From contig NZ_NQOG01000017.1 of the NCBI RefSeq assembly GCF_002270485.1, forward strand, positions 1 to 58,687: DNA of 58,687 nucleotides, given 5' to 3'. The notes under the pieces are model-generated. The model made no database searches. It was not told the origin of the DNA and worked only from the letters and a program-made list of their open reading frames with translations. This DNA is from Anaerostipes hominis (ex Lee et al. 2021). Lineage in GTDB: Bacteria > Bacillota > Clostridia > Lachnospirales > Lachnospiraceae. The stretch's first letter is position 1; the number at the start of each line of letters is the position of its first letter. Both the position numbers and the translations under genes were made by a program. Shown one piece after another: positions 2,669 through 41,505 of this stretch.

Positions 2669-2679
2669 GAAAATCCTCC

Positions 2680-4023
2680 TTATCTTTCGTTCTTTAATTT
2701 TAATGTTGGCCAATAATCACCGTTTGCATCAATTAAGTCATCTAAGATTTTTCTTGCAACTGTTGTAGATGGTACTGTTTTGTTTATAGCTATAGCTTGT
2801 AATGCTTTATCATAAGAATTTTCAAAATAAGCATCTACAGCTAATTTTTCTGAAGCTAATTGATTTTCCATCATTCCTTTGTGGAAGGTTGGTATTGCTG
2901 GAATTGACACTGGCTCTGGCCCCCATGAACGTATATATGCTGGTACTTCTACCATGGCATCTGCTGGCATATTAGGGATAGCTCCATTATTTTCTACAAT
3001 TACTAAGAAACGTTCTCCCTTATTGTATGCAATAGATGAGGCTGCATCAACTATAAAGTCGCCAAATACTGTGAACTCTTGTAATGGACTCTTATAGTTT
3101 TCTGGTGACTCTAAATATTTCTTGTGTTCTGCAAACATTTCTTGTTCACGTTCTTCAATAACCATATCAGCTCTTGTACGATTTATATCCATTTTTGCTA
3201 CCATCTCTGAAGAATATAAATAGTATTGAAGATAGCTGTTTGGTAAGAAGTCAGGATAATCCTTAACTATCTCTGCATATTGCTTCCATGTCTTTTGCCA
3301 ATCCTTATCTTTATGATGCTTATCACTACAAGCTGTCATACCAGAAGTTAATATCATTTCTCTTAATTCTGGTAAACGGTCCTTCCCATCTTTATCATAT
3401 AAAGCTGTAAACCACCCAAAGTGATTTAATCCAAAATAACATGGGTCTAATGATTGCCAGCTATCTAAGCCTAACATCTTAGAATAAGATAAAAGAATTG
3501 CTGTTGGCATATCGCATATATTTAATATTCTTTCATTATTGAACTCTCTTCTTGTAGCCTCTGCAACAACTGCTGCTGGGTTTGAATAATTTAAAATCCA
3601 ACAATTTGGAGAATACTTTTTTGCCATTTTTATGATATGAATTATAGCTGGAATTGAACGCATTCCATAAGAAATTGATCCTCCAGGACCACAAGTTTCT
3701 TGTCCAACTACTCCATATTTTAATGGAATCTTTTCATCTGAACTTCTTAACTTTAATCCACCTTGACGAATTTGAGCAAATACAAAGTCTATATCTGTAT
3801 AAGCCTCTTCTTCATTTGTTGTAACTACAACCTCAAGACCTGGATAAGTTTCATTAATGAATTGCTTCATGATATCATATACTAAATGTAATCTTTTTTC
3901 ATCGATATCAAATAAAGCTAATTTTCTTAAAAGAAATTCATCCTTCTTTTGTAATAAACTTTGAATTATTCCTGGTGTGTGTGTGCTTCCTGCACCTACT
4001 ATAACTACTGCATTTTTCTTCAT
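2680..4023 (-). CDS. 6-phospho-alpha-glucosidase, glycoside hydrolase family 4
   Basis: Cytoplasmic GH4 hydrolase of 447 residues, the family's usual length. It cleaves the phosphodisaccharide delivered by the adjacent PTS. GH4 enzymes use NAD+ and a divalent metal: the NAD site is at the N-terminus (VIVGAGSTHTPGI), and the metal-binding CDMP motif of the MalH/GlvA branch is present near residue 172, as is the GPGGSISYGMRSIPAI segment. The start at 4023 has AGAGG seven bases upstream; an alternative ATG at 4029 lies too close to it. First gene of the minus-strand operon GH4-PTS-RpiR. The palindrome at 4094-4118 is the likely operator. Confidence 0.92.
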   Translation of the reverse strand: MKKNAVVIVGAGSTHTPGIIQSLLQKKDEFLLRKLALFDIDEKRLHLVYDIMKQFINETYPGLEVVVTTNEEEAYTDIDFVFAQIRQGGLKLRSSDEKIPLKYGVVGQETCGPGGSISYGMRSIPAIIHIIKMAKKYSPNCWILNYSNPAAVVAEATRREFNNERILNICDMPTAILLSYSKMLGLDSWQSLDPCYFGLNHFGWFTALYDKDGKDRLPELREMILTSGMTACSDKHHKDKDWQKTWKQYAEIVKDYPDFLPNSYLQYYLYSSEMVAKMDINRTRADMVIEEREQEMFAEHKKYLESPENYKSPLQEFTVFGDFIVDAASSIAYNKGERFLVIVENNGAIPNMPADAMVEVPAYIRSWGPEPVSIPAIPTFHKGMMENQLASEKLAVDAYFENSYDKALQAIAINKTVPSTTVARKILDDLIDANGDYWPTLKLKNER

Positions 4024-5612: not shown

Positions 5613-6509
5613 ATGTATAACAGTCTCTTAACAGCCTTTGTAACGGTGGCTGACTGCGGCAGTTTTACAAAAGCTGCAGAAATCCTGTACATTTCACCTA
5701 CCGCTGTTATGAAACAGATCAATTCCCTGGAAAACCATCTGGACCTGAAGCTTACAAAACGGACACCCTCAGGGATTCGTCTGACGCCTGCCGGGGAGGT
5801 AATCTATAAAGATGCAAAGTTTTTATTCGATTTTTCCAAAAAATCAATTACGAATGCCAGACATGCTATGTCTTGTACAGACCGAACTTTCTATGTCGGA
5901 ACATCACTTCTTAACCCGGCAAAACCCTTTATGAATTTGTGGTACCGCGTAAATAAAGATTTTCCTGGCTATAAACTGCATCTTGTTCCTTTTGACGATA
6001 ACCATAAAGGGATTCTTTCAGAAATATCACAATTGGGAGAAAAATTTGATGTCCTGATCGGTGTCTGTGATTCTAAGACATGGCTAAACAAATGCAATAT
6101 GTTTCCTCTCGGAAGATATAAAAAGATGTGTGCAGTCTCAAGGGAACACCGTCTTGCAGAGAAAAAACTGCTGAAAATTACGGATTTATACGGTGAAAAA
6201 CTCATGATGGTAAAGCAGGGTGACTCCGATACCAATGATCATATCAGAGACGATCTCAAGAAACATCATCCCCAGATACAAATAGAAGACACCCCGCATT
6301 TTTATGATATGTCCGTGTTTAACCGGTGCGCCGAGACAGAAAATATACTGTTATCCCTGGAATGCTGGCAGGATGTTCATCCTGGGTTAGTGACAATTCC
6401 CGTAGAGTGGGAATACAGCATATCCTATGGGCTGTTGTATTCACTCAAACCTGCAGATTATGTGCTGCGGCTGGTTCGGATATTAGAACAGATGAATTTG
6501 TCATCGTAA
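5613..6509 (+). CDS. LysR-family transcriptional regulator
   Basis: A 298-residue LysR protein: N-terminal winged helix (residues 1-60, with GSFTKAAEILYISPTAVMKQ) and a C-terminal substrate-binding domain from about 90. The ATG at 5613 has GGAGG six bases upstream. Transcribed away from the CMD/cupin operon with the palindromic site between them, the classical arrangement for a LysR regulator and its target. The effector is unknown. A fragment of a close paralogue follows at 6553. Confidence 0.92.
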   Translation: MYNSLLTAFVTVADCGSFTKAAEILYISPTAVMKQINSLENHLDLKLTKRTPSGIRLTPAGEVIYKDAKFLFDFSKKSITNARHAMSCTDRTFYVGTSLLNPAKPFMNLWYRVNKDFPGYKLHLVPFDDNHKGILSEISQLGEKFDVLIGVCDSKTWLNKCNMFPLGRYKKMCAVSREHRLAEKKLLKITDLYGEKLMMVKQGDSDTNDHIRDDLKKHHPQIQIEDTPHFYDMSVFNRCAETENILLSLECWQDVHPGLVTIPVEWEYSISYGLLYSLKPADYVLRLVRILEQMNLSS

Positions 6510-6552
6510 TCATAAACCCTCCAAAAGGGAACAATATAGGCGCTATAAAAAT

Positions 6553-6858
6553 CAATTTGTAGGAACGTCTTTGCTTAATCCATGCCGTACTTTTTTCAAC
6601 CTTTGGAAATCGATCAGCGAGAAGCATTTAGAATATCAGTTAAACATTGTTACATTTGAAGATGACCACAGAAATATACTTTCAACACTTGAACACTTAG
6701 GGAAGGATTTTGATTTTTTTGTAGGAACGTGCAGTTCAAGATCCTGGCTGTCGAAATGTAACTTTTATCCTCTGGGATATCACTATTTGAATGTGGCAGT
6801 TCCATACGGGCATCCTCTTGCCGGATATAAAACGATAGAACTTTCTAATGCCTACCCA
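6553..6858 (+). pseudogene. LysR effector-domain fragment, paralogue of the preceding gene
   Basis: The frame reads FVGTSLLNPC..FFNLW and continues with WLSKCNFYPLG, matching the start of the effector domain of the gene at 5613 (YVGTSLLNPAKPF..NLW, WLNKCNMFPLG). The helix-turn-helix is missing and similarity stops near 6858, where unrelated sequence takes over. There is no start codon with a ribosome site. It is a remnant of a duplicated LysR gene, truncated at both ends. Confidence 0.75.
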
Positions 6859-6893
6859 TGCTTCAACCTTTATAGATTATTCCGCATCTTCTA

Positions 6894-7205
6894 TTATGCT
6901 AAATATCTTCTTTCAATTTTCATCCTCATTGATGCATAGTCCAAATGGAGCAATGCAGAGTAATCCTTATCTTCTAAAACAACACCATAGGCATATTTTT
7001 TGAACAACTCAATTTCCGTATGTTTTCGCTTGTTGACCATGTCTTGAAGATAAATTAGATATACTCCTCTTGGAAGGTATATGGCCAACTCTGGTTCCAT
7101 GCTATTCATATCTGTATCAACTTTATCCGCATTTATTGATTTCCCTATAACTAATGACATCACTTTAGGGTATTTTGCCGCATTAAATTCTATCCTATTT
7201 TCCAT
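6894..7205 (-). CDS. hypothetical protein
   Basis: About 103 residues from an ATG at 7205 with GAAAGGA eight bases upstream. No family recognised. It is charged, soluble-looking, and has the notable segment PRGVYLIYLQDMVNKRKH. It sits between a LysR fragment and a recombinase fragment, in a stretch scarred by mobile elements, so it may be accessory DNA or itself a partial gene. Confidence 0.4.
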   Translation of the reverse strand: MENRIEFNAAKYPKVMSLVIGKSINADKVDTDMNSMEPELAIYLPRGVYLIYLQDMVNKRKHTEIELFKKYAYGVVLEDKDYSALLHLDYASMRMKIERRYLA

Positions 7206-7268
7206 AAAACAAATCCTTTCTTCAACACCCATTATTGCCTGTTCGTATCCAACACCCAAGGTTTCTAC

Positions 7269-7663
7269 CTATACCTTTATCTCCATCCCATTCTTAAAAG
7301 TAAAATGGATATCTTCCTTGCTGAAGACTGTCACATAATCCACCAAACTGTACCAGATCCGTTCTCTGAATTCCGTAACCGTCCCGTCCTGCTGTTCCAG
7401 TTCTGTGAGGAACATCTCTATTTTTTCACGCCTTGCCAGTTTCTCAGTAATGGCAAGCGTGACGGCATCCATCTGCCCCTTCACCCTGTCGAAACGCTCC
7501 GACAGGCCATCATACCTTTTCTGGTATTCGCTTTGGTCGAGGGCAATGCGGGCGTTCTCGTCAATGCACTGCTGTATCATCCCCGCTATCACGTTCAGCT
7601 CTTCCTTCAGCCCCGCTTTCTCCCTTTCAAGCTTTCCCGTGGAAAAGGCGGCATCCGTCAGCT
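7269..7663 (-). pseudogene. C-terminal fragment of a large serine recombinase
   Basis: About 130 codons resembling the tail of a large serine recombinase: a coiled-coil stretch (YQKRYDGLSERFDRVKGQM) and the terminal element WYSLVDYVTVFSKED followed by FTFKNGMEIKV. Catalytic and zinc-ribbon parts are absent. Its upstream edge at about 7663 abuts the broken vanH fragment directly, so the junction looks like the scar of an insertion plus deletion. Confidence 0.75.
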
Positions 7664-28927: not shown

Positions 28928-29015
28928 GTTCAATCGAGTAGGAGGCTAGTCATTAAGTGACTAGCCGACCTCTCAGTCGAGTAAGTAAGAGGAATTTCAC
29001 CTCAAACTTCTCACG

Positions 29016-29049
29016 GAACCGTACGTGAAAGTCTCCTTTCATACGGCTC
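29016..29049 (-). ncRNA. group II intron domain V
   Basis: A 34-nt catalytic hairpin: GAGCCGTAT pairs with ACGTACGGTTC, with an upper stem GAAAG/CTTTC. Sequence and length fit domain V; RNA catalysis may survive even though the protein gene is broken. Confidence 0.85.
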
Positions 29050-29056
29050 TTATCAT

Positions 29057-30275
29057 TCAGCAGTACGAATATATCATACTCCAATGAGCAAATAGTTTTG
29101 GCTCTCGCTTTCTCAAAGTGCAGAGCCATTCTTCTGCCCTGCGTCTTCTCCCACGGAAGTTCTTATACATACACATGCCCATTTCACAAGTCTTCTTTCT
29201 ATGCATAGCAGCGTATCTTTCATTGCGGATGGATTGTATTTCCCAAAATAATTCATCCAGCCACTTAGTATCGGATTCTATACATTGCTTTAAATGTGTA
29301 TCCCAGAAAAATCAAACTCTGTAAGTTCTTCTTCCTTTCACCTGTCCTCGTCCTTACAATACACAATCCTTGTCTTGGTCGGATTCAGTTCCAGCTTACA
29401 TTCTTCAAACCTTTGAGCCAGGCTCTGCTTGATACATATTGCCTCCTCTTTTGTACGGCAGTGGACTATTCTATCATCTGCATACCTCTCAAACGGGGCT
29501 TGCGGAAAATTTCATTTCATCCACATATCAAATACATAGTGCAAAAACATATTTGCAAGAACCGGACTTATTACTCCACCTTATGATTAGAAAGGCATAA
29601 CGCTCCTTGCGGTGAACCCACTTTTGTTGGGAAGTATTTTCCGTCTTCTATTACTCCTGCTTTTAACCATTGCCGAAACAATTTCAGAACTCGTCTATCA
29701 CTGATTCTTCTTTCGATAAGACTCATAAGTATTTCATGGTCGATGTTATCAAAATATCCTTTTATGTCTGCATCTACTACATACCAGCTCTTATATAAAG
29801 TCTTCTGTACCTTCTTCGTTGCCTGTATTGCGTCCCGTTTTGGTCTGAACCCATATGAGCATTCTAAAAAGTTTGCTTCAAAAACTGGTTCAACTACTAT
29901 TTTGCATGCCTGTTGTACAATTCTATCTCTAATAACAGGTATACCCAATGGTCGCTGTTTACCATCTGGCTTTGATATATAAACTCTCTTAACTGGTTTT
30001 GGATAATAGATGCCTTTTACTAAATCTTCCTGGGTATCCAATAAGTATGATTCCACTCCATACTCTTCAATCATTTCAAAGGTCACACCATCTATTCCGG
30101 CACTTCCTTTGTTTTCTTTTACCTCTTTCCACGCCCGCCATAAAACATCCAGGCGAAAAATACGGTCATACAACGCATGAAATCTGCGTTGCTTATCCTT
30201 TTTGGCAGACAAGTATAGTTTGCATTGAAGTTGTCGTGATTTATCTATTGAGTGTTGTTGTCCCTTTTGAGGCAT
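29057..30275 (-). pseudogene. group II intron reverse transcriptase/maturase, frameshifted
   Basis: From the ATG at 30275 (MPQKGQQHSIDKSRQLQ) the frame covers the RT fingers and palm start (GSAGIDGVTFEMIEE, DADIKGYFDNIDHE) up to GSPQG. There a 26-bp insertion shifts the frame; GVISPVLANMFLHYVFD and the active-site YADD follow in another frame. A further shift precedes LIFLGYTFK, and the maturase tail (RRRAEEWLCTLRKREPKLFAHW) is recognisable to 29057. Needed for splicing and mobility, so this copy cannot mobilise itself. Confidence 0.85.
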
Positions 30276-30747
30276 GCACTGTCCCTTACCTTCCTGTTTA
30301 ACTTGACTAAAGTAGAGCCCCTTTTCCAAATACGTTTATCTTACCGCACCATCATAGATACTATGGGCTCCTCCGACTCCTCATAATGCGTCTTCTTGAA
30401 TTTCGTGTGTTACTTATATCAAGAATTACATGTTTATGGTTCCATGACACTATGAGGTCTCTTCTGTTCCATCAACAACTATGTTAACATTCCGCTCCCT
30501 CTACACCGAAGGGTTCTTCAGCGCTGCTTCCAGTTTCTTCACGCCTTCCGTGGTCTTCGTCAGAAAGCCAGTGACTCGACACCCTCTTTTTCCCAAAAGG
30601 GCTAACGTAACGATGCTACAGGATTCACTTAATGTTACGGAGCTCACTGGTGATTACTCCGACCAGACTTTCACTGGCAAGCTGTTGACAGCTTGCAGAA
30701 CACACGACTTTCACCCATTAGTAACGTGCGCAGCCAGGCGCACTCAG

Positions 30748-31529: not shown

Positions 31530-31956
31530 CTACGGTCTGCCGTTTAGCTGAAATAAACTGTCTAACAGCAGCCAGTTGGCCCGAAACGGCCTCATCAGAT
31601 TCCAGTATCCGACACCCGTAAAACCATATTCTTTTGCTGTCCGGACTTTTACATCGATACTCCGGACATCTTCAAACCATACTTCATGTTCTGTTCCATT
31701 TAACGTGTAGTTAAAAAATGGGCTCATAGCAGTCTCATCGAACCGGATCTGTACTCCGTTCTGATCTGCGATCTCCACTGCTTCCACATTTCCGATCGTC
31801 CTTGCCCTTGTGGTTCCTCTCTCGTAGGGGAGCGGCCAGTCATAGGCATAGTTCGGAATGCCCATATATATTTTCTCCGGCGGGATCTCTGTCACTGCGT
31901 AATCCAAAACCTGTTGGACTTTGTTGATCGGTGCAACTGCCATTGGCGGCCCGAAC
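31530..31956 (-). pseudogene. 3' part of the interrupted LysM-GH18 gene
   Basis: C-terminal third of a glycoside hydrolase family 18 protein (KIYMGIPNYAYDWPLPY, GVGYWNLMRPFR). Read upstream it runs in frame through TTC GGG CCG CCA ATG into the repeat GTATATCCCC at 31957-31966. The 5' part lies at 40089-40943. As it stands, translation from the internal ATG at 31943 would give an inactive tail. Confidence 0.9.
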
Positions 31957-31966
31957 GTATATCCCC
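31957..31966. repeat. left attachment-site core (GTATATCCCC)
   Basis: Identical to 40093-40102. The repeat reads in frame as part of the host gene at both ends, as expected for a site-specific recombination core. Confidence 0.85.
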
Positions 31967-32032
31967 GTGCACGTCAATGGTAGTATTATATTCTTATTTT
32001 CTAATATTATAACACACATTTATGTCTACTTT

Positions 32033-32064
32033 TACTTGACATATGTCAAGTAGCGTAGTATACT
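32033..32064 (+). promoter_or_regulatory. consensus promoter with 20-bp palindromic operator
   Basis: TTGACA (32036-32041), 17-bp spacer, TATACT (32059-32064). The -35 box lies inside the perfect palindrome TACTTGACATATGTCAAGTA (32033-32052). Drives the DUF4160/DUF2442 pair; the palindrome suggests autoregulation by a dimeric DNA-binding protein. Confidence 0.8.
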
Positions 32065-32091
32065 ATAACTTATAGAAAGGAAGTGAAATAA

Positions 32092-32343
32092 ATGCCTGAA
32101 ATAACAAGATTTTATGGAATCGTCATTAAGATTTTTTTCCGTGGCGAACATAATCCCCCACACATACATGCTGTATATGGTGAACATAATGGGGTATTTG
32201 AAATTTCCACAATGGAAATGATCGAAGGTGACCTGCCTAGGAAAGCGATTAAGTTAGTGCAGGAATGGGGAGAATCTTATAAAGACGATTTGCAAGAAAT
32301 GTGGGATAGCAAACAATTAAAAAAACTTCCGCCGCTTGAATAG
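32092..32343 (+). CDS. DUF4160-domain protein
   Basis: An 83-residue protein with the DUF4160 signature FRGEHNPPHIHAVYGEHNG. DUF4160 genes are commonly paired with DUF2442 genes on mobile elements, and the pair is suspected of being a toxin-antitoxin-like system; that role is not proven. Start at 32092 with GAAAGGAAG upstream; 29 bp before the DUF2442 start, under the palindromic promoter at 32033. Confidence 0.88.
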   Translation: MPEITRFYGIVIKIFFRGEHNPPHIHAVYGEHNGVFEISTMEMIEGDLPRKAIKLVQEWGESYKDDLQEMWDSKQLKKLPPLE

Positions 32344-32372
32344 CGGTGGAAGCCAGATTGGAGGTGATTATA

Positions 32373-32816
32373 ATGCTTTCCATAAAAGTAAAAGATGTAA
32401 TTCCGTTAAGCGATATGAGGTTACTTGTATTCTTTGAAAACGATATGATAAAACTATTTGACGTGAAGCCCATCATGAAAGATTATCCAGAATTTGAAGC
32501 ATTGAAAAATACAGATCTTTTTAACCTTGTAAAAGTTGAACCTGGCGGCTACGGAATTTCTTGGTCTCATGAACTTGACTGCTCTGAAGGTGAGTTGTGG
32601 GAAGACGGAGTTGAATTACCTATTACCCCTGAATTTTTTATAAACTTTGTTAAGTATGGCATTATAAATACAAAAGATGCCTGTGATCTTTTAGATTGCA
32701 GTCGTCAGAATATTGATGATCTATTAAAAAGAAAGAAAATAACTCCTGTAAAATCGTTCCAGCGTAATAAACTATTTTTAAAAAGCGATATTCTAAAAAG
32801 ACATGATGTACTTTAA
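32373..32816 (+). CDS. DUF2442 protein with C-terminal helix-turn-helix
   Basis: A 147-residue protein. The first 85 residues match DUF2442 (VIPLSDMRLLVFFEND, GGYGISWSHELDCS). The rest is a helix-turn-helix (DACDLLDCSRQNIDDLLKRKKITPVK), not present in short DUF2442 proteins. It may be the antidote and repressor of the pair, binding the palindrome at 32033 (inference). Start at 32373 with GGAGGTGA upstream. Confidence 0.87.
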   Translation: MLSIKVKDVIPLSDMRLLVFFENDMIKLFDVKPIMKDYPEFEALKNTDLFNLVKVEPGGYGISWSHELDCSEGELWEDGVELPITPEFFINFVKYGIINTKDACDLLDCSRQNIDDLLKRKKITPVKSFQRNKLFLKSDILKRHDVL

Positions 32817-32829
32817 TTATCTCATTAAA

Positions 32830-32863
32830 TTTAAAGAGCAGCTCATCTGAGCTGCTCTTTAAA
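32830..32863. terminator. bidirectional terminator hairpin
   Basis: Perfect 16-bp stem (TTTAAAGAGCAGCTCA with its complement) around a 2-nt loop, between the convergent DUF2442 and tail-fibre genes. Confidence 0.8.
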
Positions 32864-32871
32864 TTCCTATT

Positions 32872-33732
32872 TTAATATCTCAAAGGGTAAAATCTAACGC
32901 TTTCGCTAGTTACGAAAGAACTTTGGATTATACATTCTATAACATCTCCACTTTTTACTGGAAATAAGCCAGAGGTTGCTTTAACATAAGTTGTTTGGTA
33001 ACCAGTTCTATATGTGAATACACCAATATTATTTATTCTCAGGTCGATTTCCGGTTTTACTGACTTATTGCCACTTGACCCAATAAACTGAATAAATCCA
33101 TCTTCTGTACACGTGTATGTTTTTGTACCAACTCCGTCGGATATAGCTATTTTAATTTTAGAGTAGTCTGGATAAGATTGCTTGTTTAATAAAGCCGAAT
33201 TTAAAACTTCAAATTTTCTGTCAAGATTTACAATCGAATTTTTCAGACTATGAATCTCTCCTGTATGTACCTGATATTGCTCGATACTTACAAGACCCAC
33301 AGAGTCCAGATCAACCTCAAACGGTGTCGTATTTGAAGTTTTGATTACAAAGTCCCATGTGATAGAAAATCCCGGCCCCTCTGTCGCAGAAGGTATATGC
33401 CTTGCCTCCGATGCCTGAGCAAGACAATACAAAATTTCGCCTTCCTCCGGATCTTCCGCGAAAAAACCAACCTGCCATAAGTCATAACTTTCTTTTAAAC
33501 TTGTGTTCTCAAGCAGAACCGGAAGAATCGTTTTTTCACCTTCTGTCCTTGAGGGCTGAAGTGTAATATCATATCCACCTTCCGTGACATCCGTCTGCTG
33601 CCGAAGATCTACAATCGGGACCTTTTTGGAACCCGTCGTAACTCTGCTGATCTTTAAAGTCTGCCCTTGAATCAGTTTAGCCTGCAGAGCTGTCCCTTTG
33701 TCTGTTAAAACTGCGTTTTCCCAAATATTCAT
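32872..33732 (-). CDS. phage tail-fibre-like protein
   Basis: A 286-residue protein. The N-terminal part (NIWENAVLTDKGTALQAKL, ITWDFVIKTSN) resembles the tail-collar/fibre attachment region of Clostridiales phages; a coiled-coil-like stretch (about 160-185) leads to a beta-rich tip. Start at 33732 with GGAGGT seven bases upstream. It is the only virion-type gene in the element, so it is probably a relic of a larger prophage or adapted to another role. Confidence 0.78.
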   Translation of the reverse strand: MNIWENAVLTDKGTALQAKLIQGQTLKISRVTTGSKKVPIVDLRQQTDVTEGGYDITLQPSRTEGEKTILPVLLENTSLKESYDLWQVGFFAEDPEEGEILYCLAQASEARHIPSATEGPGFSITWDFVIKTSNTTPFEVDLDSVGLVSIEQYQVHTGEIHSLKNSIVNLDRKFEVLNSALLNKQSYPDYSKIKIAISDGVGTKTYTCTEDGFIQFIGSSGNKSVKPEIDLRINNIGVFTYRTGYQTTYVKATSGLFPVKSGDVIECIIQSSFVTSESVRFYPLRY

Positions 33733-33801
33733 GATAATACCTCCTGATATAAACGGTTGTTTCACAGAAGCCATTCAAAAATCTATGGCTATGCTACTTT
33801 T

Positions 33802-34358
33802 TTATTTCTTCAGATCATGATCTCTATAAAGAATATAGCATGGTGCCCTGGGACAATGTGGGCAAGTTAATCTAGAGACAATTAAGTTTCTAAACATATA
33901 TAATATGCAACTAAATTTAAGTGATATTACTTCTATACATATTAAATATCTATTTAGTCCAAATAGTGGTATTTGAACTTCCATCATAATACCTATACAC
34001 AATATTAGTAGCATTTCAAACAACTGATCATAAATTTCCTCATCATTTTTCGATACAATGCAGAGAAGAAATTCATATTCTTCCAATCCTCTTTTTTCTG
34101 CATTAAAAATGGCTGCTAATCTCCTACGGTGCCCCACAATCACTTCATATTCTCCCATATCTTACTTTTTAACCAACAGCGGCTGAAGGATATCACCTGT
34201 AGATCTAAAGGATGCTGCAAGTTCCTCTATCCCTTTCGTTTCATAAAAGTTATCATCTGACGGATATAGCTTTTTATAGTGAATCATAACAATCTTTTGC
34301 GGACTTTGCGTTTTTTCGGCTCTGTATTCTTTAAAATATCATCAATCGTGAAGGCCAT
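33802..34358 (-). pseudogene. ParB-type partition protein remnant
   Basis: Starts with an ATG at 34358 overlapping the ParA end (MAFTIDDILKNTEPKKRKVRK), shifts frame to IVMIHYKKLYPSDDNFYETK and EELAASFRSTGDILQPLL, then shifts again to GEYEVIVGHRRRLAAIFNAE, the ParB/Spo0J core with its GHRR motif. The DNA-binding C-terminal part is lost. At least two frameshifts. Confidence 0.75.
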
Positions 34359-34932
34359 TATAGTTCACCTCCTGAAGCAGTTCTTCTACAAAATTTCTAT
34401 AATCCTCTGCGGCTGTGGAACTGCGTGCACATTTTTCAAGTGGTTTTCTTTTATATGTACTCTCGTCCGCTTTCACAGTACGACGGATGACACTTCGAAA
34501 AATTGGATACCTGTTTAATGTCACAAGTTCCTCATATCCTCTGCGCCCTGAGACACTCTTTTGGAACTGTGTGATCAGTATCTTATATCGGATTTTTCCC
34601 GTTATTTTCTCTATCTCACTTATCTGATCATCCATGATTTCAATACCATTAATGGCATATTGGTCTAATTTTATCGGTATGATACATAAATCAGATGCAA
34701 CCAATGCCGCAATAGTATAGTCTTCTAAAGACGGATGACCGTCTATGATGACAAAATCGTATTGTTCCTTTATTTTCTTTAATTGCTCTTCTAAAAGAAA
34801 ACATACACATTCAGTTCGCACAAGCGTGTTATTCGCCTGAACTATATCCAAGTTTTTATATTTCGTCCTGCTTTTAAAGTTCTTCTCATTGATCAGATAA
34901 GAAAGATTTGTTGCCGTGGTCGTCTTCCCCAC
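34342..34932 (-). pseudogene. ParA-type ATPase remnant
   Basis: Carries the Walker A GVGKTTTATNLSYL without the preceding N-terminus, and after it a deletion removes the Walker A' region; later parts (YDFVIIDGHPSLEDYTIAAL, ILITQFQKSVSGR) are normal. Its 5' edge is fused into the end of the DUF4373 gene. It overlaps ParB by 17 bp, the usual parAB arrangement. Non-functional as a partition ATPase. Confidence 0.75.
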
Positions 34933-35630
34933 ACCTCACAGAATTTGTCTAGTAACTCATCAAAATTTTGAATTTCTGATTCTTTTGTATTCGTAAAGAA
35001 TCCTTTTTTATTCTTCTTGTCTTGACTGAGAAATTGAATGATCTTATTTCTGGTAGGATACCCGTAGTAGTCTGATGTTCTTGCGATGTAATAATCAATA
35101 CATTCCTTGCCATAGGTTTTATAGAGATCTTCTACTTCTACTTTATCTTTAATTTCATTTCCTTTACTTTCTTCTACTTTCCTTTGTTCAGGAATGTCTA
35201 CATTTTTACTGTTTTTGACTACATTTTTTCCGGTTAGGTGTACATTTTTATTCAAAATGGCGTAATTTAACAGAAGGTATTCTCTTCTCATTTCAACTTC
35301 TTTTCTTCGAACTGTCCCTTTTAAAAATCTAACTTGTATTCCAGCACTCGTCAGAATTTTATATTTGTGAAACAATTCTTTGTTAAAAATACCTCTTTTT
35401 ATTGCTTCTTCAATTATTTCAGACAAAAGATTGGCACCCACTCCGATCCTTGAAGCAAACAGCAATCTAACATCATCATTCCAATCACAGTAATACCCGT
35501 CTCCCCCGTATATCCTTTGGAAGAGCTTTATAATTACTGCATATCCTTTTATCCCGTATGCAGCTTCCAAAAGCTGCATTTTATCATTCATTACACAGTC
35601 AAGACCAAAATCGTCAAGACTCTGTTTCAT
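34893..35630 (-). CDS. DUF4373 (Lin1244/Lin1753-type) replication-associated protein
   Basis: A 245-residue protein. The first 100 residues match DUF4373 (YGIKGYAVIIKLFQRIYGGDGYYCDW), found in phage and plasmid replication-initiation proteins; the middle is a charged linker. The last ~15 residues (VWGRRPRQQIFLI) are parA DNA read in another frame, which marks a deletion junction near 34950, so the true C-terminus is lost. Start at 35630 overlaps the preceding gene by 4 bp. Confidence 0.8.
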   Translation of the reverse strand: MKQSLDDFGLDCVMNDKMQLLEAAYGIKGYAVIIKLFQRIYGGDGYYCDWNDDVRLLFASRIGVGANLLSEIIEEAIKRGIFNKELFHKYKILTSAGIQVRFLKGTVRRKEVEMRREYLLLNYAILNKNVHLTGKNVVKNSKNVDIPEQRKVEESKGNEIKDKVEVEDLYKTYGKECIDYYIARTSDYYGYPTRNKIIQFLSQDKKNKKGFFTNTKESEIQNFDELLDKFCEVWGRRPRQQIFLI

Positions 35631-35848
35631 TTTTTACCTCCGGCCTCTGGCCTGAATTTATTAAACTTTTTTAATTCCTCCTTGCAAACATGGAGATTAT
35701 TAATTACATCTGCATTTTGGCATTTACACTCAGGACAAACACAGTTTAGAGATACAGACCAATATTCATGACCGCAGTTAATACAAATATCGTCCCAAAA
35801 TTGATCTGTAATTTTTGTAATGCCATCTGAATATGTATTACTCTCCAT
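35627..35848 (-). CDS. small zinc-ribbon protein
   Basis: A 73-residue protein with two Cys pairs (CINCGH and CPECKC), a typical zinc ribbon. Its stop overlaps the start of the DUF4373 gene (ATGA-type coupling), so it belongs to the replication operon. Function unknown. Confidence 0.7.
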   Translation of the reverse strand: MESNTYSDGITKITDQFWDDICINCGHEYWSVSLNCVCPECKCQNADVINNLHVCKEELKKFNKFRPEAGGKK

Positions 35849-35856
35849 ATAGTTAC

Positions 35857-35964
35857 CTATCCTTGAACTTTAAGAATCTTTTCGTTATAATAAAACTGTA
35901 GTATTTGTTTTGCCCCTTTTTGGAATTGCAGTTCCGAAGGGCCTTTTTTATTTGTTAGATTCAC
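35857..35964 (-). CDS. 35-residue protein with GTG start
   Basis: GTG at 35964 with AAGGAGGT seven bases upstream; the peptide contains GPSELQFQKGAKQILQFYY. Ends 8 bp before the zinc-ribbon gene. The strong ribosome site supports translation. The opposite strand of the same stretch carries a candidate small RNA. Confidence 0.5.
   Translation of the reverse strand: MNLTNKKGPSELQFQKGAKQILQFYYNEKILKVQG
35863..35950 (+). ncRNA. candidate counter-transcribed small RNA of the replication operon
   Basis: A near-consensus promoter (TTGAAC 35863-35868, 17 bp, TATAAT 35886-35891) would start at about 35898. About 25 nt later a GC stem (GCCC/GGGC and GGAA/TTCC, 35921-35943) is followed by six T. The product would be about 55 nt, antisense to the leader of the DUF4373 operon, like plasmid copy-control RNAs. 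No expression evidence. Confidence 0.4.
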
Positions 35965-36018
35965 TCTCTCTACCTCCTTTCCAACTTGTCCTCCCACAGC
36001 CGCTTAACGCAGCTGTGG

Positions 36019-36183
36019 TTAAATGGCTTTTCTTTTCCTGCTTTTCATTACAATATCAGCTGCCTCTTTCAAGATCAGTTGAATATCTTCTTCTGTTTTA
36101 TTCCTGCAAAAATTATCTGCTATTTTTACCTTTGTTTCTCCAATAGAAAATTCTTTTACAACATGAGGTTCCTCATGATCCAT
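36019..36183 (-). CDS. 54-residue mobile-element protein
   Basis: ATG at 36183 preceded by GGGGGAA; encodes EFSIGETKVKIADNFCRNKT and ends in KSRKRKAI. Small proteins with this IxDxxCxxKTxED pattern occur in conjugative elements and prophages of Firmicutes; function unknown. Lies in the minus-strand early operon of the element. Confidence 0.6.
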   Translation of the reverse strand: MDHEEPHVVKEFSIGETKVKIADNFCRNKTEEDIQLILKEAADIVMKSRKRKAI

Positions 36184-36289
36184 CGCAATTCCCCCAATCT
36201 TTGATTAATTCATTTTATGAAGATATGTTTGTACTTCTTTCCTGCTCTCTGATTATTTCAAAGAGTATTTTATTAACTGACCAGTTTTT

Positions 36290-36433
36290 TTACCTCTTTA
36301 AGCCGGTTCTTTCTCTTTGTCCGTTGTTTCTCTCATTTTTCCATCTAAGAATAATTAACATTACTTCCTTAACATCCCTTGATACTCCTAGTAATAATTC
36401 AGCGGTTTCTTTTATCTCTGCTACTCTTTTCAT
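36290..36433 (-). CDS. 47-residue protein divergent from the repressor gene
   Basis: ATG at 36433 with a perfect AAGGAGGT seven bases upstream; the product (MKRVAEIKETAELLLGVSRD at its start) is helical and basic at the end. Divergent from the XRE repressor, the position of a cro/excisionase-like early gene. No family recognised. Confidence 0.55.
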   Translation of the reverse strand: MKRVAEIKETAELLLGVSRDVKEVMLIILRWKNERNNGQRERTGLKR

Positions 36434-36505
36434 AACATTCACCTCCTTGTGTTCTATACACACATTATCATTTTTGTGGTGGTATGCAATACTATTTTTG
36501 TTTTT

Positions 36506-36539
36506 TTGTGTTGTCACGCACAATTCTTCATGCTATAAT
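36506..36539 (+). promoter_or_regulatory. repressor promoter and TTGTG/CACAA operator
   Basis: TTGTCA (36511-36516), 17 bp, TATAAT (36534-36539). The -35 box lies inside the inverted repeat TTGTG-N8-CACAA. A related pair (CACA...TGTG) sits about 40 bp to the left, before the divergent small gene, so the region looks like a two-operator immunity switch. Confidence 0.6.
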
Positions 36540-36560
36540 GAAGCAAATGGAGGTGAGAAA

Positions 36561-36941
36561 TTGAAAATTGGTGAAAGAATAAAATATGTGAGAGAGAGTT
36601 TAAATCTCTCTCAGTCAAAATTTGGTGAAACTATGGGTGTTAGTCGAGATGTAATATCCAATGTTGAGTTAGGAAGGGTTGAACCTAAAGAATATATCTT
36701 GCGCCTAATATGTAAAACATACCGTGCTAATTATTTATATTTAACTGAAGAATTTGGTGATCCATTCGTAGGTGTTCCAGAAATCATTATGGATGACGTG
36801 ATTGAAGAATACAGACTAGATGCAACCGACAGAGCACTAATTGAAGAATATGTTAAATTAGATGAAGAAACACGACAATCGTTTAAACAATATTTGTTTC
36901 GTGTTTTAGAAAAGGCACAGAAGGAATCGGCAATAGTATAG
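36561..36941 (+). CDS. XRE-family phage-type repressor
   Basis: A 126-residue repressor starting at TTG 36561 with GGAGGTGA four bases upstream; the open frame upstream of this is not similar to anything. HTH at about 10-40 (LSQSKFGETMGVSRDVISNV), then an acidic linker and a helical dimerisation tail. Probably controls the divergent early operon of the element. Confidence 0.82.
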   Translation: MKIGERIKYVRESLNLSQSKFGETMGVSRDVISNVELGRVEPKEYILRLICKTYRANYLYLTEEFGDPFVGVPEIIMDDVIEEYRLDATDRALIEEYVKLDEETRQSFKQYLFRVLEKAQKESAIV

Positions 36942-37219
36942 GTGTCGAACAAACTACTATAAGCTATATGGAACGAGAGGGTTCTGTTGTGAAACCTTCC
37001 AATCTCCAATTGATTTGTGCAGTTCATCACATCAACTTTTTATAGCTTTTAAAAGGAATGGATAATCAGGGCCAATTATTTATAGAAAATTATGTTAAGC
37101 TCAATAAAGAAGCAAGGAATATAATAAAAAGTCTGCTCTCAGGTGCATTTGAAAAGGCACCGGCCGGATTAAACTCCGATGCCTTCTACAAAAATCTTAT
37201 GAGCATATTCAAATACTAG
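36938..37219 (+). pseudogene. fragments of a second XRE repressor
   Basis: GVEQTTISYMEREGSVVKPS and LQLICAVHHINFL correspond to the recognition-helix half of the preceding repressor, then a stop; after a shift, FIENYVKLNKEARNIIKSLL matches its tail (LIEEYVKLDEETRQSFKQYL). A decayed paralogue, lacking its N-terminus. Confidence 0.65.
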
Positions 37220-37288
37220 TCTAACTTGCGCCGTATTCATTTTTGTAATTAATTTGAAGATGCCAATTATGTAATCATATTTTGTCAT
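37169..37288 (-). CDS. 39-residue small protein
   Basis: ATG at 37288 with AAGGAG ten bases upstream; product contains IGIFKLITKMNTAQVRLVFE. Resembles very short helical proteins common on integrative elements. It overlaps the repressor remnant on the other strand. From 37300 to 37534 I see no further gene. Confidence 0.45.
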   Translation of the reverse strand: MTKYDYIIGIFKLITKMNTAQVRLVFEYAHKIFVEGIGV

Positions 37289-37534
37289 TTGTCTGTTTCT
37301 CCTTTGTTATTCATAGAATGTTTTTTATTGTAAATTAGTTTGAGGTCTTAAATACGATTAAGAACATTTATTTTGCAACCTGTTACCGAAAGCACCATAA
37401 AGGTTAAGGAGTAAACATGTTTATCCTACAGTAATTCATATCTCTTTTTTTGGTTTTTTATAAATTACCATAATTTACATGCTATAGTACACTTAAGAGG
37501 GACGTAACTTTAAAAAGCACTAAGGAGGTAGCAC

Positions 37535-38251
37535 ATGAAGGAAAAGAAAAAGGGCGGATGCCTAAAGACACTATTAATCATTTTTGGAGTCTTAATTGTA
37601 ATCGGAGTAATTGCCAGTATATTTGGTAATGATGAAGATGATACGAAGCAAAATTCCAAAAGCAATAACAAAGTCACTACTGAAAAGATTACCGAATCCA
37701 CTACTGAGAGAAAGGTTGAACTAGTAAACTTTTCAAAGACATTTTCTCCTGGATATTATACTGCGGGATATGACTTTCCATCTGGTACATATAATCTAAA
37801 AGCTACATTCGGGGGCGGAAATGTAATTTCAGAAGGTGCAGGACTAAATTTAATAATGGGCCTTAAATCTGATGATATGTATACAAAAACATATAACAAT
37901 GCATCTTTCAGTGAAGGAGATATAGTACAAATAGCATCAACATTAAAGTTGAAGTTCAAAACGACAGAAAAGGTAGAAAAGAAAAAATTATTAAAATACG
38001 GACGAAAAGGTGAGAAAAAAACCTTATCTCCAGGGAAATATCTAGTAGGAAAAGATATTAAACAGGGAATTTATGATATAACTCTAGTAAATGGATCAGG
38101 AAATGTAATATCTGATGATGGAGTCTTAAATGAAATCATGGGTTCAGGAGATACAAGCATGTATGTTAAAAAATTTATGCATGCACCTTTACAAGATGGG
38201 ACAACCGTTGAAATTGACGGTGTAACTGTCAAAATTTCACCAAGTAAATAG
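37535..38251 (+). CDS. membrane-anchored protein with a duplicated domain
   Basis: A 238-residue protein: basic N-terminus (MKEKKKGGCLK), one membrane anchor (about 12-30), a Ser/Thr-rich spacer (about 35-62) and two copies of a ~65-residue beta domain. The copies share GxYxxGxDxxxGxYxxxxxxGxGNVIS...LNxIMG (about 75-130 and 165-220). Outside-facing topology is likely. Start at 37535 with AAGGAGG upstream. Unknown family to me; as element cargo it could act in exclusion or surface change, which is speculation. Confidence 0.7.
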   Translation: MKEKKKGGCLKTLLIIFGVLIVIGVIASIFGNDEDDTKQNSKSNNKVTTEKITESTTERKVELVNFSKTFSPGYYTAGYDFPSGTYNLKATFGGGNVISEGAGLNLIMGLKSDDMYTKTYNNASFSEGDIVQIASTLKLKFKTTEKVEKKKLLKYGRKGEKKTLSPGKYLVGKDIKQGIYDITLVNGSGNVISDDGVLNEIMGSGDTSMYVKKFMHAPLQDGTTVEIDGVTVKISPSK

Positions 38252-38263
38252 TTTGAAAAAAAG

Positions 38264-38287
38264 TCCGCCCGGCGGCAACCAGGCGGA
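38264..38287 (-). terminator. GC-rich terminator hairpin
   Basis: TCCGCCCGG pairs with CCAGGCGGA (one mismatch), followed by a T run only on the minus strand. It lies after the membrane-protein gene; which transcript it ends is unclear. Confidence 0.5.
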
Positions 38288-38361
38288 AAAAGTTGATACT
38301 ATTCATGTATGACGTTGAAAATGAATAATACCGTACTCGCAATACATATTATACCATTTCA

Positions 38362-38392
38362 AACGCCGTGCTTGCAATAGGCGTTCTTTTTG
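38362..38392 (+). terminator. intrinsic terminator before the recombinase gene
   Basis: AACGCC pairs with GGCGTT, then CTTTTTG. It insulates the recombinase gene from upstream transcription. Confidence 0.6.
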
Positions 38393-38444
38393 TACTCATT
38401 TTTATTACAATATAGATCATAAAATAAAATGGAGGTATAATATT

Positions 38445-40049
38445 ATGCTGAAAACAGACGGAAAATACTGCATCTACTTGAGAAAATCCAGGGCTGATCG
38501 TGACACTCAATTATATAATCATAGTAAAGAAGATGTCTTGAAAAGACATCGTGAAATACTTCTCTCTACATCAAGGAATTTAGGTATTCATATCTCTAAA
38601 ATTTTTGAAGAGGTTGTTTCCGGTGATACCATTGCAGCAAGGCCGGAAGTCCAAAAACTTCTTAGTGAGGTTGAAAATAATTTATGGGATGGCGTTCTTG
38701 TTGTAGAGGTAGAGCGTCTTGCTCGTGGCGATACAAAGGACCAGGGCACAATCGCAGACACTTTTAAATACTCTGATACACTAATTATCACCCCTCAGAA
38801 AATATATGATCCCAGCAGCGAATTTGACGAAGAGTATTTTGAGTTTGGTTTGTTCATGAGCCGCCGTGAGTACAAAACGATCAACCGCCGTCTAAATCGT
38901 GGACGAATAAAGTCCGTGAAGGAAGGGAAATGGATTGCGGCTGAAGCTCCTTACGGATACAGAAAAGTTAAAATTAAAGGTGATAAAGGATATACTATTG
39001 CATTTCTTGAGGGTGAAATTGACGTTGCCCGAATGATATTTAATTGGTTTCGTATTGGTGAGTTACAGGAAAACGGCACATACAAGACACTTAGTCCAGA
39101 CAATATTGCTGTACGTCTTGATTCAATGGGGATTAATCCTCGCAAGGCGAAAAAATGGAGTAGGGCTACGATAAGAGATATCCTTACAAACCCAGCCTAT
39201 GCTGGTATGGTTCGTTGGGGCTATAAAAAAGAAGAAAAAAGGATGGTTGGTGGTATTCTTTCAGTAGAAAGGAGACGGTCTAAAGATTTTCATTTGTATG
39301 ATGGCATTCATCCAGCCATAATTACAAAAGAAGATCATTATGCTATTCTTAGGAAATTGACTGGCAATGCCCGATCTTCTTCAGTAAATAGCAACAATAA
39401 GCTGAAGAATCCTTTATCTGGATTAGTCTATTGTGATAACTGTGGTCATCTCACAACCAGGCTTGGACAAAACTCAAAAAACAAATATGAAACAATTAAG
39501 TGTCCAAATAGAAATTGCGATAATGTTTCTGCACCCTTGGTTTTAGTGGAAGAAAAGATATTAGCTTCATTAAGTGACTGGCTTTCTAAATATAAATTAG
39601 AATGTGACAATAAGGATTTTGCGGCGGAAGAATTACATCTAAAGCAAGCATTAATTAGTAATTTATACAAAGATAAAGAAAAAGTCAAAAGACAGTTAGA
39701 TAAAACATACACTTTACTTGAACAGGAAGTATATACAATTGAGATCTTTGTGCAGCGAAATAAGGCATTGACAGATCAACTACAAGCTATAAACACCAAT
39801 ATTATTGACCTGGAATCTGCCTATAACGCAGAACTTAATACAAAATATGAGTATGAAGAATTGATTCCCAAAATGGAGAATATTATTGATATATATTTTA
39901 AAATTGAAGACATACAAACTAGAAATGAATTATTAAAATCTGTATTAGAAAAAGTTACATACAAAAAAACAGTACGGAACACGAAGGGTAACGCACTGAA
40001 CGCAAACTTTGAAATTACAATTTTCCCGAAACTGCCTAAAAAGAAATAG
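38445..40049 (+). CDS. large serine recombinase (integrase/excisionase)
   Basis: A 534-residue large serine recombinase. Resolvase domain with catalytic Ser15 (YLRKSRADRD) and the conserved arginines in VEVERLARGD and EYKTINRRLNRGRIKSVKEG; recombinase domain at about 180-280; zinc-ribbon cysteines (CDNCGH and CPNRNC, about 330-360); coiled-coil region after 390. No frameshift is visible. Its stop is 43 bp from the right attachment core, as is usual for such integrases. Start at 38445 with GGAGG upstream. It should catalyse integration and, with a directionality factor, excision. Confidence 0.95.
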   Translation: MLKTDGKYCIYLRKSRADRDTQLYNHSKEDVLKRHREILLSTSRNLGIHISKIFEEVVSGDTIAARPEVQKLLSEVENNLWDGVLVVEVERLARGDTKDQGTIADTFKYSDTLIITPQKIYDPSSEFDEEYFEFGLFMSRREYKTINRRLNRGRIKSVKEGKWIAAEAPYGYRKVKIKGDKGYTIAFLEGEIDVARMIFNWFRIGELQENGTYKTLSPDNIAVRLDSMGINPRKAKKWSRATIRDILTNPAYAGMVRWGYKKEEKRMVGGILSVERRRSKDFHLYDGIHPAIITKEDHYAILRKLTGNARSSSVNSNNKLKNPLSGLVYCDNCGHLTTRLGQNSKNKYETIKCPNRNCDNVSAPLVLVEEKILASLSDWLSKYKLECDNKDFAAEELHLKQALISNLYKDKEKVKRQLDKTYTLLEQEVYTIEIFVQRNKALTDQLQAINTNIIDLESAYNAELNTKYEYEELIPKMENIIDIYFKIEDIQTRNELLKSVLEKVTYKKTVRNTKGNALNANFEITIFPKLPKKK

Positions 40050-40088
40050 GTTTTTTATTTTTACTTATTACCATAGACGTGATGATCC

Positions 40089-40943
40089 TTATGTATATCC
40101 CCATTCGTACGTCATCAAAAATACGGAATCTGCATTAGCACCCAAAAGTCCGTAGTCCATTCCTTCATATAACAGGCCTGCCTGTTCTGCAGAAATTTTA
40201 GGTGCTAAAGCGACAGACACCTTATATCCTAAGGGATTCATCCGCTCTCTTAAGTTACCTACGAATGCGGCATATCCCTCCCGGTCCTCCGGAAGGATGT
40301 ATTCAAAATCCACATCCACTCCGGCATATTGCTTTTCCTGAACCGTCTGAACCAGATTCTCAATAAGAACCTGCTGCATCTGAAGATCTTCCGACACAGC
40401 CTTAACCAGCTGATTGTTAAAACTTCCGGTCTCTGCAAACGGCGTCAGCACAAGCATGGGATCAACCCCAAACTCCAATGTCTGTTCAATCAGAGGCTCT
40501 TCCATAGCCGGCGGTATGAGCGTTCCTTCGGTTGTAAAGCCATAAGAAAAGATCAGAAGTTCATTCAAATATAAGAGTACTTCTCTTAAAATCTCCGTGC
40601 TGATATATGGATAAGCATATCCCGTTACATTGAGGTTCCCCAGCTGCTCCTGCCGATAGCGGATCGTTAGCACATCTCCCGGCATCAGATTTGATTCATT
40701 CAGCAGATATGGATTTTTTCTGACAATCGAAGAAACCGAGGTGCCGTACTGCTGCGCAATAGATGTCAGCGTATCTCCTTCCTGTACCGTATGGACAACA
40801 GAGGGCTCCAGAATGAGCAGTGCCTGGCCGGGCACAACTCTCCCGGCATAAATCTGGTTGTCATAGATCAGCCGGCTACTTGAAATATGAAACTGCCCTG
40901 CAATAGAATTAATGGTATCCCCTTCATTTACTACATATATCAT
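40089..40943 (-). pseudogene. 5' part of the interrupted LysM-GH18 gene (YaaH/SleL type)
   Basis: Encodes two LysM peptidoglycan-binding repeats (about 2-46 and 50-95) and the first two thirds of a GH18 domain including the catalytic DxDxE motif DVDFE (Glu214). The frame ends in FLMTYEWGYT followed by a stop supplied by the inserted element; the remainder is at 31530-31966. The rejoined product has 425 residues, like spore cortex-lytic N-acetylglucosaminidases YaaH and SleL. It starts 3 bp after yjdF. Interrupted, but potentially restorable by excision. Confidence 0.92.
40093..40102. repeat. right attachment-site core (GTATATCCCC)
   Basis: Identical to 31957-31966; lies at the break in the host LysM-GH18 frame. 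Confidence 0.85.
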
Positions 40944-40946
40944 ACT

Positions 40947-41384
40947 TCATTCCTTTTTTTGGTCTTTTTCTAAATATATGCACCCGTCAAAAAAGGAATT
41001 CCTGGGCTTATTCTTTTCATGCTGCTTCCGTTCTTCCCGCAGATCTTTTCTGCGCTCTTTCCTTACGGTTATTTGTTCTTCCCTCCGGGCAGCCAGCGCC
41101 TGCTGGGACTTGGTTCCCAGCCCTTCGTTCCTGTGCCTTCGAAGACTTCTCTGCATTCGTTTGGGATTCAGATTTTTTACCTCTTTGACCGAAACATCCA
41201 CGGGAGGGCTGAAACGAAGTTCTCCATGATGCTCCATCAGAAATGCCAAGACCTCATAGTCTTTTGGTTCTGCCCCGAACGTAATTTTGGACACTTCCAA
41301 CCCTCCGTCCAGAACACGTTCATAAATCCCGACCCAAAAGGGTCCGTCAAAATATACTGTCAGCCTGCTCTCGATTTTTTGCAT
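40947..41384 (-). CDS. yjdF: YjdF-family protein
   Basis: A 145-residue protein with the YjdF/DUF2992 signature (LTVYFDGPFWVGIYER, then ITFGAEPKDYEVLAF) and a long basic, charged C-terminal helix. Function unknown; the family is linked to a riboswitch that responds to azaaromatic compounds. Start at 41384 (MQKIESR) with GGAGTG upstream. Followed within 3 bp by the GH18 gene, an unexpected operon partner. Confidence 0.9.
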   Translation of the reverse strand: MQKIESRLTVYFDGPFWVGIYERVLDGGLEVSKITFGAEPKDYEVLAFLMEHHGELRFSPPVDVSVKEVKNLNPKRMQRSLRRHRNEGLGTKSQQALAARREEQITVRKERRKDLREERKQHEKNKPRNSFFDGCIYLEKDQKKE

Positions 41385-41399
41385 AAAAAACACTCCTCG

Positions 41400-41505
41400 C
41401 TTTCGACAGCAAAGAACGGACAACCGAGGAGGCAGGTTACTGACAGATTTTATCTCTGCGCCCGGACTACCGGCCGGGACTGTGTTTTTATCTTTGCACG
41501 ATTTA
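41400..41505 (-). ncRNA. candidate yjdF riboswitch
   Basis: About 100 nt directly upstream of yjdF are GC-rich and foldable: GTCCCGG/CCGGGC and CAGA/TCTG stems, and the stretch AACCTGCCTCCTCGGTT next to the ribosome site. Position and character fit the yjdF motif; I cannot run a covariance search. Confidence 0.55.

Follow-up and report, generated by a model that had tools for sequence, protein, structure and literature searches.

A phage-derived, skin-like element in a sleL/yaaH-like gene of Anaerostipes hominis and the recombinase lineage to which it belongs

A contig of 58,687 bases from Anaerostipes hominis (NZ_NQOG01000017.1), which as a whole is called the window here, carries a gene resembling the spore-cortex hydrolase gene sleL (yaaH) that is cut in two by an inserted element of 8,136 bp (31967..40102). 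Judged from sequence, this is an 8.1-kb skin-like element that looks competent for excision; it would be of a known kind, in a target gene not found reported, and part of a wide recombinase lineage. The reading that we favour, as probable though well short of certain, is that the element derives from a phage and, with a directionality factor, excises precisely and restores SleL, most likely in the sporulating mother cell. The spore genes known to be rebuilt by prophage excision number only a handful, mostly from Bacillus and a few clostridia.

In the proposed model, a temperate phage would first have integrated through its large serine recombinase at an attB (the bacterial attachment site) within the conserved EWGYT codons of sleL/yaaH. 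The integrated phage would next have lost most of its genome, leaving the intervening element seen today. The recombinase and a directionality factor could then excise the element precisely, giving a full SleL. In Bacillus, SleL/YaaH is made in the mother cell during sporulation, and by analogy with the skin and SPbeta elements the excision would take place there. The rearranged chromosome of the mother cell would be discarded, and the spore would keep the element. Such developmental programming is the likeliest use of the element if these analogies hold.

The split gene and its empty site

Both pieces of the gene lie on the minus strand. The 5' part (40089..40943) encodes two LysM domains and the first part of a GH18 domain (Pfam LysM 1.3e-21, Glyco_hydro_18 1.4e-10), and the 3' part (31530..31966) encodes the rest of GH18, in frame from a GYT at 31964 (Glyco_hydro_18 1.7e-11, profile 207-314). 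Their open stretches are 40092-40943 and 31533-31964, respectively. The 5' piece ends in ...MTYEWGYT, followed by a TAA stop that the element contributes, and the 3' piece begins GYTFGPPMAVAP.

A 10-bp direct repeat, GTATATCCCC, forms the core of both junctions. One copy stands at the recombinase end of the element (40093..40102, plus strand) and the other at the far end (31957..31966, plus strand); the two meet in the empty site described below. The window holds exactly these two copies, which share one orientation and are each in frame with the gene, and none on the opposite strand over its whole length. The second copy ends at 31966, and the in-frame part starts at 31964. The initial annotation had described two gene halves and an in-frame repeat at both break points, and both descriptions hold.

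A natural empty site is found in another genome of the genus (G003, locus L091). The flanks of the window align there at 92.0% (1,161 bp) and 93.8% (930 bp), overlapping by 10 bases at L091 1502-1511. This overlap is the single copy of the core, there GTATAGCCCC, with one base different. The uninterrupted gene has 1,278 bp, or 425 amino acids and a stop, which is the length predicted in the initial annotation for the fused gene (1,278 bp, 426 codons). The existence of this site excludes a chance occurrence of the repeat and insertion pattern. Since the gene is whole with one copy of the core, excision between the cores would give the frame of the intact relative. Thus the suggestion that exact excision could restore the gene is upheld as a sequence prediction, and the related genome reads across the junction as expected. 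Two further genomes of the genus have the whole gene (G006, 423 amino acids; G008, 421 amino acids). With the 5' piece as query, the gene is shown by only 4 of 11 same-genus genomes; five others give LysM-only matches and two give none.

The element carries a large serine recombinase of 534 amino acids (38445..40049, plus strand; Pfam PF00239, PF07508 and PF13408, that is resolvase, recombinase and zinc-ribbon domains; PHROG integrase 3.9e-88), whose stop codon lies 43 bases from the core. Of the 108 columns with a conservation of 95% or more across 80 relatives, it keeps 102, including the serine and the four zinc cysteines; none of the six changed columns is one of these. The recombinase is apparently intact, and a check for inactivating changes, called for in the initial annotation, came out in its favour. 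Beside the cores lie the arms of an imperfect inverted repeat, paired by eye: TACCATAGACGTG (40069..40081, plus strand), a putative recombinase-binding arm, and CACGTCAATGGTA (31970..31982, plus strand). One imperfect arm at each element end is as expected of a retained attP (the phage attachment site). The core, the apparently intact recombinase, the retained half-sites and an empty site with the expected frame together show a precise, site-specific insertion.

The identity of the target was examined through the intact relative. Its closest solved relatives are a cortical-lytic enzyme (4s3j, 7.8e-82, residues 2-421) and a YaaH entry (4s3k, 5e-78, residues 2-424), which we take to be the SleL proteins of B. 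cereus and B. megaterium. Two LysM domains are followed by GH18, and the similarity to solved SleL runs over the full length, in agreement with the earlier naming of the target as YaaH/SleL-like. Action on cortex muropeptides during germination is predicted from these SleL/YaaH relatives. The cut falls inside the one GH18 domain, with the DxDxE motif in the 5' piece and the remainder of the domain in the 3' piece. A search of the host genome confined to PF00704 (GH18) matched only these two pieces.

The host genome comprises 3.33 Mb in 85 contigs, of which the window is contig C9. SpoIVA exceeds its cut-off in all 11 same-genus genomes, and the host's own SigE, SigG and SigK genes are each above the cut-off of at least one NCBIfam model, with SigF just below; for these reasons the host looks spore-forming. 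Its own sigK is uninterrupted.

The recombinase lineage and its targets

A scan of named genomes gave 461 relatives of the recombinase, of which the best 80 (42 to 54% identity) were kept. Within these 80, 38 are at sleL (37 of them within 3 kb of a gene piece), 26 at a cotJC-like gene, three at an asparagine synthetase gene, and 13 elsewhere or unassigned. The element had been regarded as a single new case; with 38 of 80 relatives at sleL, that view does not stand, and the element belongs to a broad recombinase lineage.

The 38 sleL loci share the same codon as point of insertion: in 28 loci the 5' piece runs to residue 283 or 284, and in 16 the 3' piece begins with residue 1 or 2. Most loci are represented by one piece; both lie at the cut in 6 of the 38, and no locus lacks both. 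In 30 of the 38 the 3' end of the recombinase gene is at most 120 bp from the junction, and its neighbour can be either gene piece. Both pieces flank an element in eight other loci, at sizes of about 1.35, 4.5, 4.9, 5.6, 9.3, 10.7, 12.4 and 12.8 kb. The element of 12.4 kb (L083) is the 38th sleL locus, with sleL pieces on both sides at more than 3 kb; another GH18-like gene, 34% identical, lies between them (6158-7414). In the smallest case (L171 in genome G259, 2086-3436), sleL is split by only 1.35 kb and the recombinase is truncated; this may be a fossil of such an element and is a likely dead end.

Within the same family, 28 of 397 genomes contain the recombinase at E 1e-60 or better. Fifteen of these 28 were searched with the intact protein, and nine have sleL pieces cut at the site. 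Counting the host, both pieces are present in 9 of 10 genomes, and G150 has only the 5' piece.

The cotJC-like loci (L024, L029, L032, L033, L035, L038, L039, L042, L043, L050, L054, L056, L059, L060, L062-L065, L067-L069, L076-L079 and L085) each show one piece of a manganese catalase, cut near the GTEE codons; CotJC is a protein of the spore coat. Pfam confirmed one 3' and one 5' manganese-catalase piece and one synthetase piece. In the three synthetase loci (L072, L082 and L087) the recombinase stands at the 3' part of the gene. B. subtilis has a sporulation-linked asparagine synthetase.

Relatives are also found in viral DNA. The best 80 of 140 relatives in the viral_contigs set comprise 11 at sleL, 12 at cotJC-like genes, two at the synthetase, 19 cut just after a gene, and 36 others. 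A set of 50,697 phage records gave 287 recombinase matches, the best at 43%.

In a tree of 81 recombinases, with a midpoint root for drawing only, the window recombinase groups with that of L008 (support 100/99). The sleL-type rows are divided by this root, 25 on one side and 13 on the other. The cotJC-like rows, 26 in all, fall within a single supported set of 38 that also contains the three synthetase rows and 9 of 14 unassigned rows. Target labels change 10 times on the tree compared with 35.8 times when shuffled, a degree of clustering that near-copies inflate.

As far as they align, the sleL pieces (34 distinct 5' and 21 distinct 3' ones) contain no internal stop; the alignment of 19 of the 34 5' pieces begins after residue 30, so that their front is not covered by the count. 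The ratio of nonsynonymous to synonymous divergence (dN/dS) is 0.04 to 0.22 for split 5' pieces in ten pairs of at least 236 residues, several with dS above 1.4, in a set that leaves out three shorter pairs and a 3' pair whose dS is infinite. For intact genes of the genus the ratios are 0.054 and 0.029. By these ratios the split 5' pieces are under purifying selection. On the branch to the window since its split from G003, 9 nonsynonymous and 24 synonymous changes depart strongly from the neutral 3:1 (p 1e-8), with time before the insertion included. Gene and recombinase have similar dS in L046/L053 (recombinase 0.57, gene 0.71) and L046/L057 (0.73, 0.67), and seem to have diverged together there.

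Genes of the element and its neighbourhood

The element has a GC content of 0.347, compared with 0.427 for the remaining window, and a small set of phage-type genes. On the minus strand are a tail-fibre-like ORF, a remnant (32872..33774; PHROG 5.4e-24), a ParA-like partition ORF (34342..34932; PHROG, with only the later part of the AAA_31 profile matched, 87-169 of 177), and a replication-initiation-like ORF (34893..35630; PHROG 3.4e-49). The plus strand carries a phage-type helix-turn-helix regulator (36561..36941; Pfam, PHROG) and an ORF with a weak superinfection-exclusion-type match at its N-terminus (37535..38251; PHROG). Ten ORFs of the element were scanned against PHROGs; none matched head, packaging or lysis genes, and the tail-fibre piece is the sole structural match. 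By this gene content the element is a phage remnant and not a phage.

Two parts of the element may supply a recombination directionality factor. The first is an ORF of 54 amino acids (36019..36183, minus strand), one of a small recombinase-linked family; it has no Pfam or PHROG match. The family is present in 117 of 161 loci by a profile that was built from 103 of the same ORFs it then counted, and in 100 of the 122 loci whose sequence extends 5 kb or more upstream of the recombinase (31 of 38 sleL, 17 of 25 cotJC-like, 3 of 3 synthetase and 49 of 56 other loci). It was not found at L031 and L194. Its size and linkage fit a directionality factor, for which it is a candidate. The second, weaker candidate is an ORF with DUF2442 and a helix-turn-helix that is similar to PHROG excisionases (32346..32816, plus strand; Pfam, PHROG), which forms a pair with a DUF4160 ORF (32092..32343, plus strand; Pfam). 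As a general factor this pair was rejected, similar ORFs being present in only two other loci, and it is kept as a weak candidate.

The 2.6-kb recombinase end of the element has short matches only, in two other same-genus genomes. The intergenic stretch before the recombinase (38256-38412) has short matches of 71-83% elsewhere in the same-genus genome G006. Outside the element, an azaaromatic (yjdF) riboswitch (41400-41501, minus strand) lies directly before an ORF (40947-41423) that itself precedes the split gene. A group II intron match (28976-30329, minus strand) lies near a reverse-transcriptase-like ORF, named by eye, that is seemingly cut short.

Known systems, rival explanations and implications

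Among the closest known elements is skin, which splits sigK in Bacillus subtilis and Clostridioides difficile. Like the window element, skin is prophage-like, has a large serine recombinase and divides a spore gene that its removal restores (PMC5025042). Its target is a sigma factor, in contrast to the cortex-lytic-type hydrolase here. The same paper describes the C. difficile directionality factor as CD1234, of 72 amino acids, and the recombinase as transcribed from a sigA promoter. SPbeta in spsM and phi3T in kamA also use a large serine recombinase, have an attP with inverted repeats and restore the host gene by excision in sporulation, and SPbeta-related phages vary in target and in recombinase orientation (PMC4191935 and PMC8270828). 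SPbeta differs in being a 134-kb active phage, compared with the 8.1-kb remnant; the window recombinase is 28% identical to the yokA product of the SPbeta-like phages Goe12 and Goe13. In Bacilli and Clostridia, other sporulation genes are interrupted in a similar way, namely gerE by gin, yabG by yin, spoVFB by vfbin and spoVR by vrin (PMC5595907, PMC10747680 and PMC4191935). These have other target genes, and yin is described there as unique to one strain, whereas sleL-type insertions occur in many genera. The best NCBIfam match of the window recombinase is XisF of the cyanobacterial fdxN element (NF041201), which is a developmental excision recombinase; at 104 bits against a cut-off of 375, the window recombinase is not a member of that family. 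In the open PMC literature as searched, the known targets are sigK, spsM, kamA, spoVFB, spoVR, gerE and yabG; sleL, yaaH, cotJC and asparagine synthetase were not found in it, a 2020 survey of regulated gene integrity being outside that scope.

Evidence for movement comes from a relative. Locus L031 of Eubacterium sp. UBA5416 is an integrated element with the recombinase and the 3' sleL piece. A viral contig of 8,195 bases (L194) has 7,813 bp in common with it at 99.987%, diverging just past the core. The 5' sleL piece of the Eubacterium genome is on another contig, and the DNA after it is 100% identical to the next 338 bp of L194 beyond the core. This identity is the reason for concluding that L194 joins the two ends of the L031 element at the core. 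L194 would then carry a free attP, as an excised circle or as a phage, and it makes precise recombination in a relative firmer without bearing on its timing. Core-like sequence with element-like sequence on both sides was also seen by eye in L016, L181 and L192. A free-attP-like form of the cotJC-like type was seen, again by eye, in L198 and L200. In genome G143, one contig starts at the core with the 5' piece and a second ends at the core with the recombinase; a third overlaps the second by 326 bases and continues into the 3' piece. Such an arrangement would be expected if integrated and excised DNA were present together, and is one case only.

Two other candidates for excised forms were set aside. 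A contig of Robinsoniella peoriensis WT (L021/L168) of 7,853 bases, with a related recombinase and a 542-base terminal repeat, would make a circle of about 7.3 kb, and is not counted because no sleL-type core was found in it; the sleL-like frame of the Robinsoniella genome, of 381 amino acids, is unbroken. Viral contigs that end a few bases past the recombinase were also rejected, since trimming may explain their ends.

Several observations weigh against programmed excision in the mother cell. The gene is dispensable in the genus, given that it is found in only 4 of 11 genomes. L194 may not be a product of sporulation at all, but a phage or the result of a chance excision, and no joined-end form of the window element is present in its own assembly, where one contig spans both junctions, or in viral_contigs. 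The directionality factor is a candidate only. Recent insertion would explain the lack of decay: the 9 and 24 changes on the window branch compare with 6 nonsynonymous and 33 synonymous on the intact branch (Fisher p 0.25). Recombinase and gene dS disagree in L053/L057 (0.44, 0.18), L018/L028 (1.11, 0.47) and L045/L055 (0.04, 0.61), and therefore transfer or repeated insertion is indicated there.

The promoter scans, which gave no clear signal, belong on the same side. Consensus motifs were scanned upstream of the recombinase in 51 sleL-type, 50 cotJC-type and 76 other loci, near-copies included, with shuffles as control. There is no sigE enrichment there: sites within two of the maximum occur in fractions of 0.02, 0.04 and 0.00 of the loci in the sleL, cotJC and other groups, compared with 0.01, 0.02 and 0.01 in shuffles. 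The commoner excess is sigA-like (0.22, 0.20 and 0.05 compared with 0.09, 0.09 and 0.07). Counts are slightly up for sigK in all three groups and for sigG in the sleL and cotJC groups. The best sites upstream of the window recombinase itself are sigG-like (10/10) and sigE-like (13/15); its nearest relative, L008, is by eye without a sigE-like -10 box. There is no clear signal upstream of the 54-residue gene either, where sigE sites within two of the maximum number 0/35, 0/22 and 0/60, and those within three number 6, 4 and 5 compared with 2.7, 2.1 and 2.5. For sigK the sleL group there has 33/35 compared with 22.7. A CATAAAAT-like box upstream of this gene was rejected as promoter evidence, being by eye the coding end of the preceding gene (..VQ(T/P)VxHKI and stop). 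In C. difficile and SPbeta, sporulation sigma factors control the gene for the directionality factor and not that for the recombinase (PMC5025042 and PMC8270828), and for this reason the sigA-like excess at the recombinase does not count against the model.

Ordinary lysogeny is a rather unlikely explanation, and one to be taken seriously. Here the conserved coding site serves simply as attB, the host goes without SleL as long as the prophage stays, and excision has no link to sporulation, following only from induction or chance. The many relatives in viral contigs, the joined ends of L194, the patchy presence of the gene in the genus and the failure of both upstream scans to find a sporulation promoter all fit such a prophage. 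It accounts poorly for a lineage that is so often at spore-type genes (38 sleL and 26 cotJC-like among the best 80 of 461), or for elements of a few kb that still carry the recombinase beside open gene pieces, and a like arrangement is programmed in skin and SPbeta.

Improbable, to a greater degree, is a dead insertion, in which the element has lost the ability to leave and sleL has become a pseudogene too recently to have decayed. G259 is in just such a state, few phage genes remain in the window element, and its excised form is absent from its own assembly and from viral_contigs. Against this stand the recombinase with 102 of 108 conserved columns, the retention of both cores and arms, and two gene pieces that are open and little changed. 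Finally, that the two pieces function as separate polypeptides and need no excision is very improbable, even with both open and an ATG at 31943 in the 3' piece, because the cut lies inside one GH18 domain and parts the DxDxE motif from the rest.

Programmed excision in the mother cell, the reading preferred here, would add a germination-type hydrolase in Lachnospiraceae to the genes rebuilt in this way, and the existence of natural relatives with the gene intact or split allows a direct test of the idea. The precise, divergent attachment sites may serve as integrase tools. The recurrence of the lineage at spore-type genes (sleL and cotJC-like) suggests that such switches may be common in anaerobic spore formers. 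A wider possibility, put forward tentatively and with doubts still slightly the stronger, is that an old phage-recombinase lineage has specialised in many Clostridia on spore genes (sleL, the gene of the cotJC-type coat catalase and a few more), with some members reduced to resident switches only a few kb long. If this is true and the mother cell uses these genes, phage DNA that is discarded with the dying cell would regulate whether a germination hydrolase and a coat enzyme are intact, and a phage family would have made terminal differentiation a general, nearly cost-free niche.

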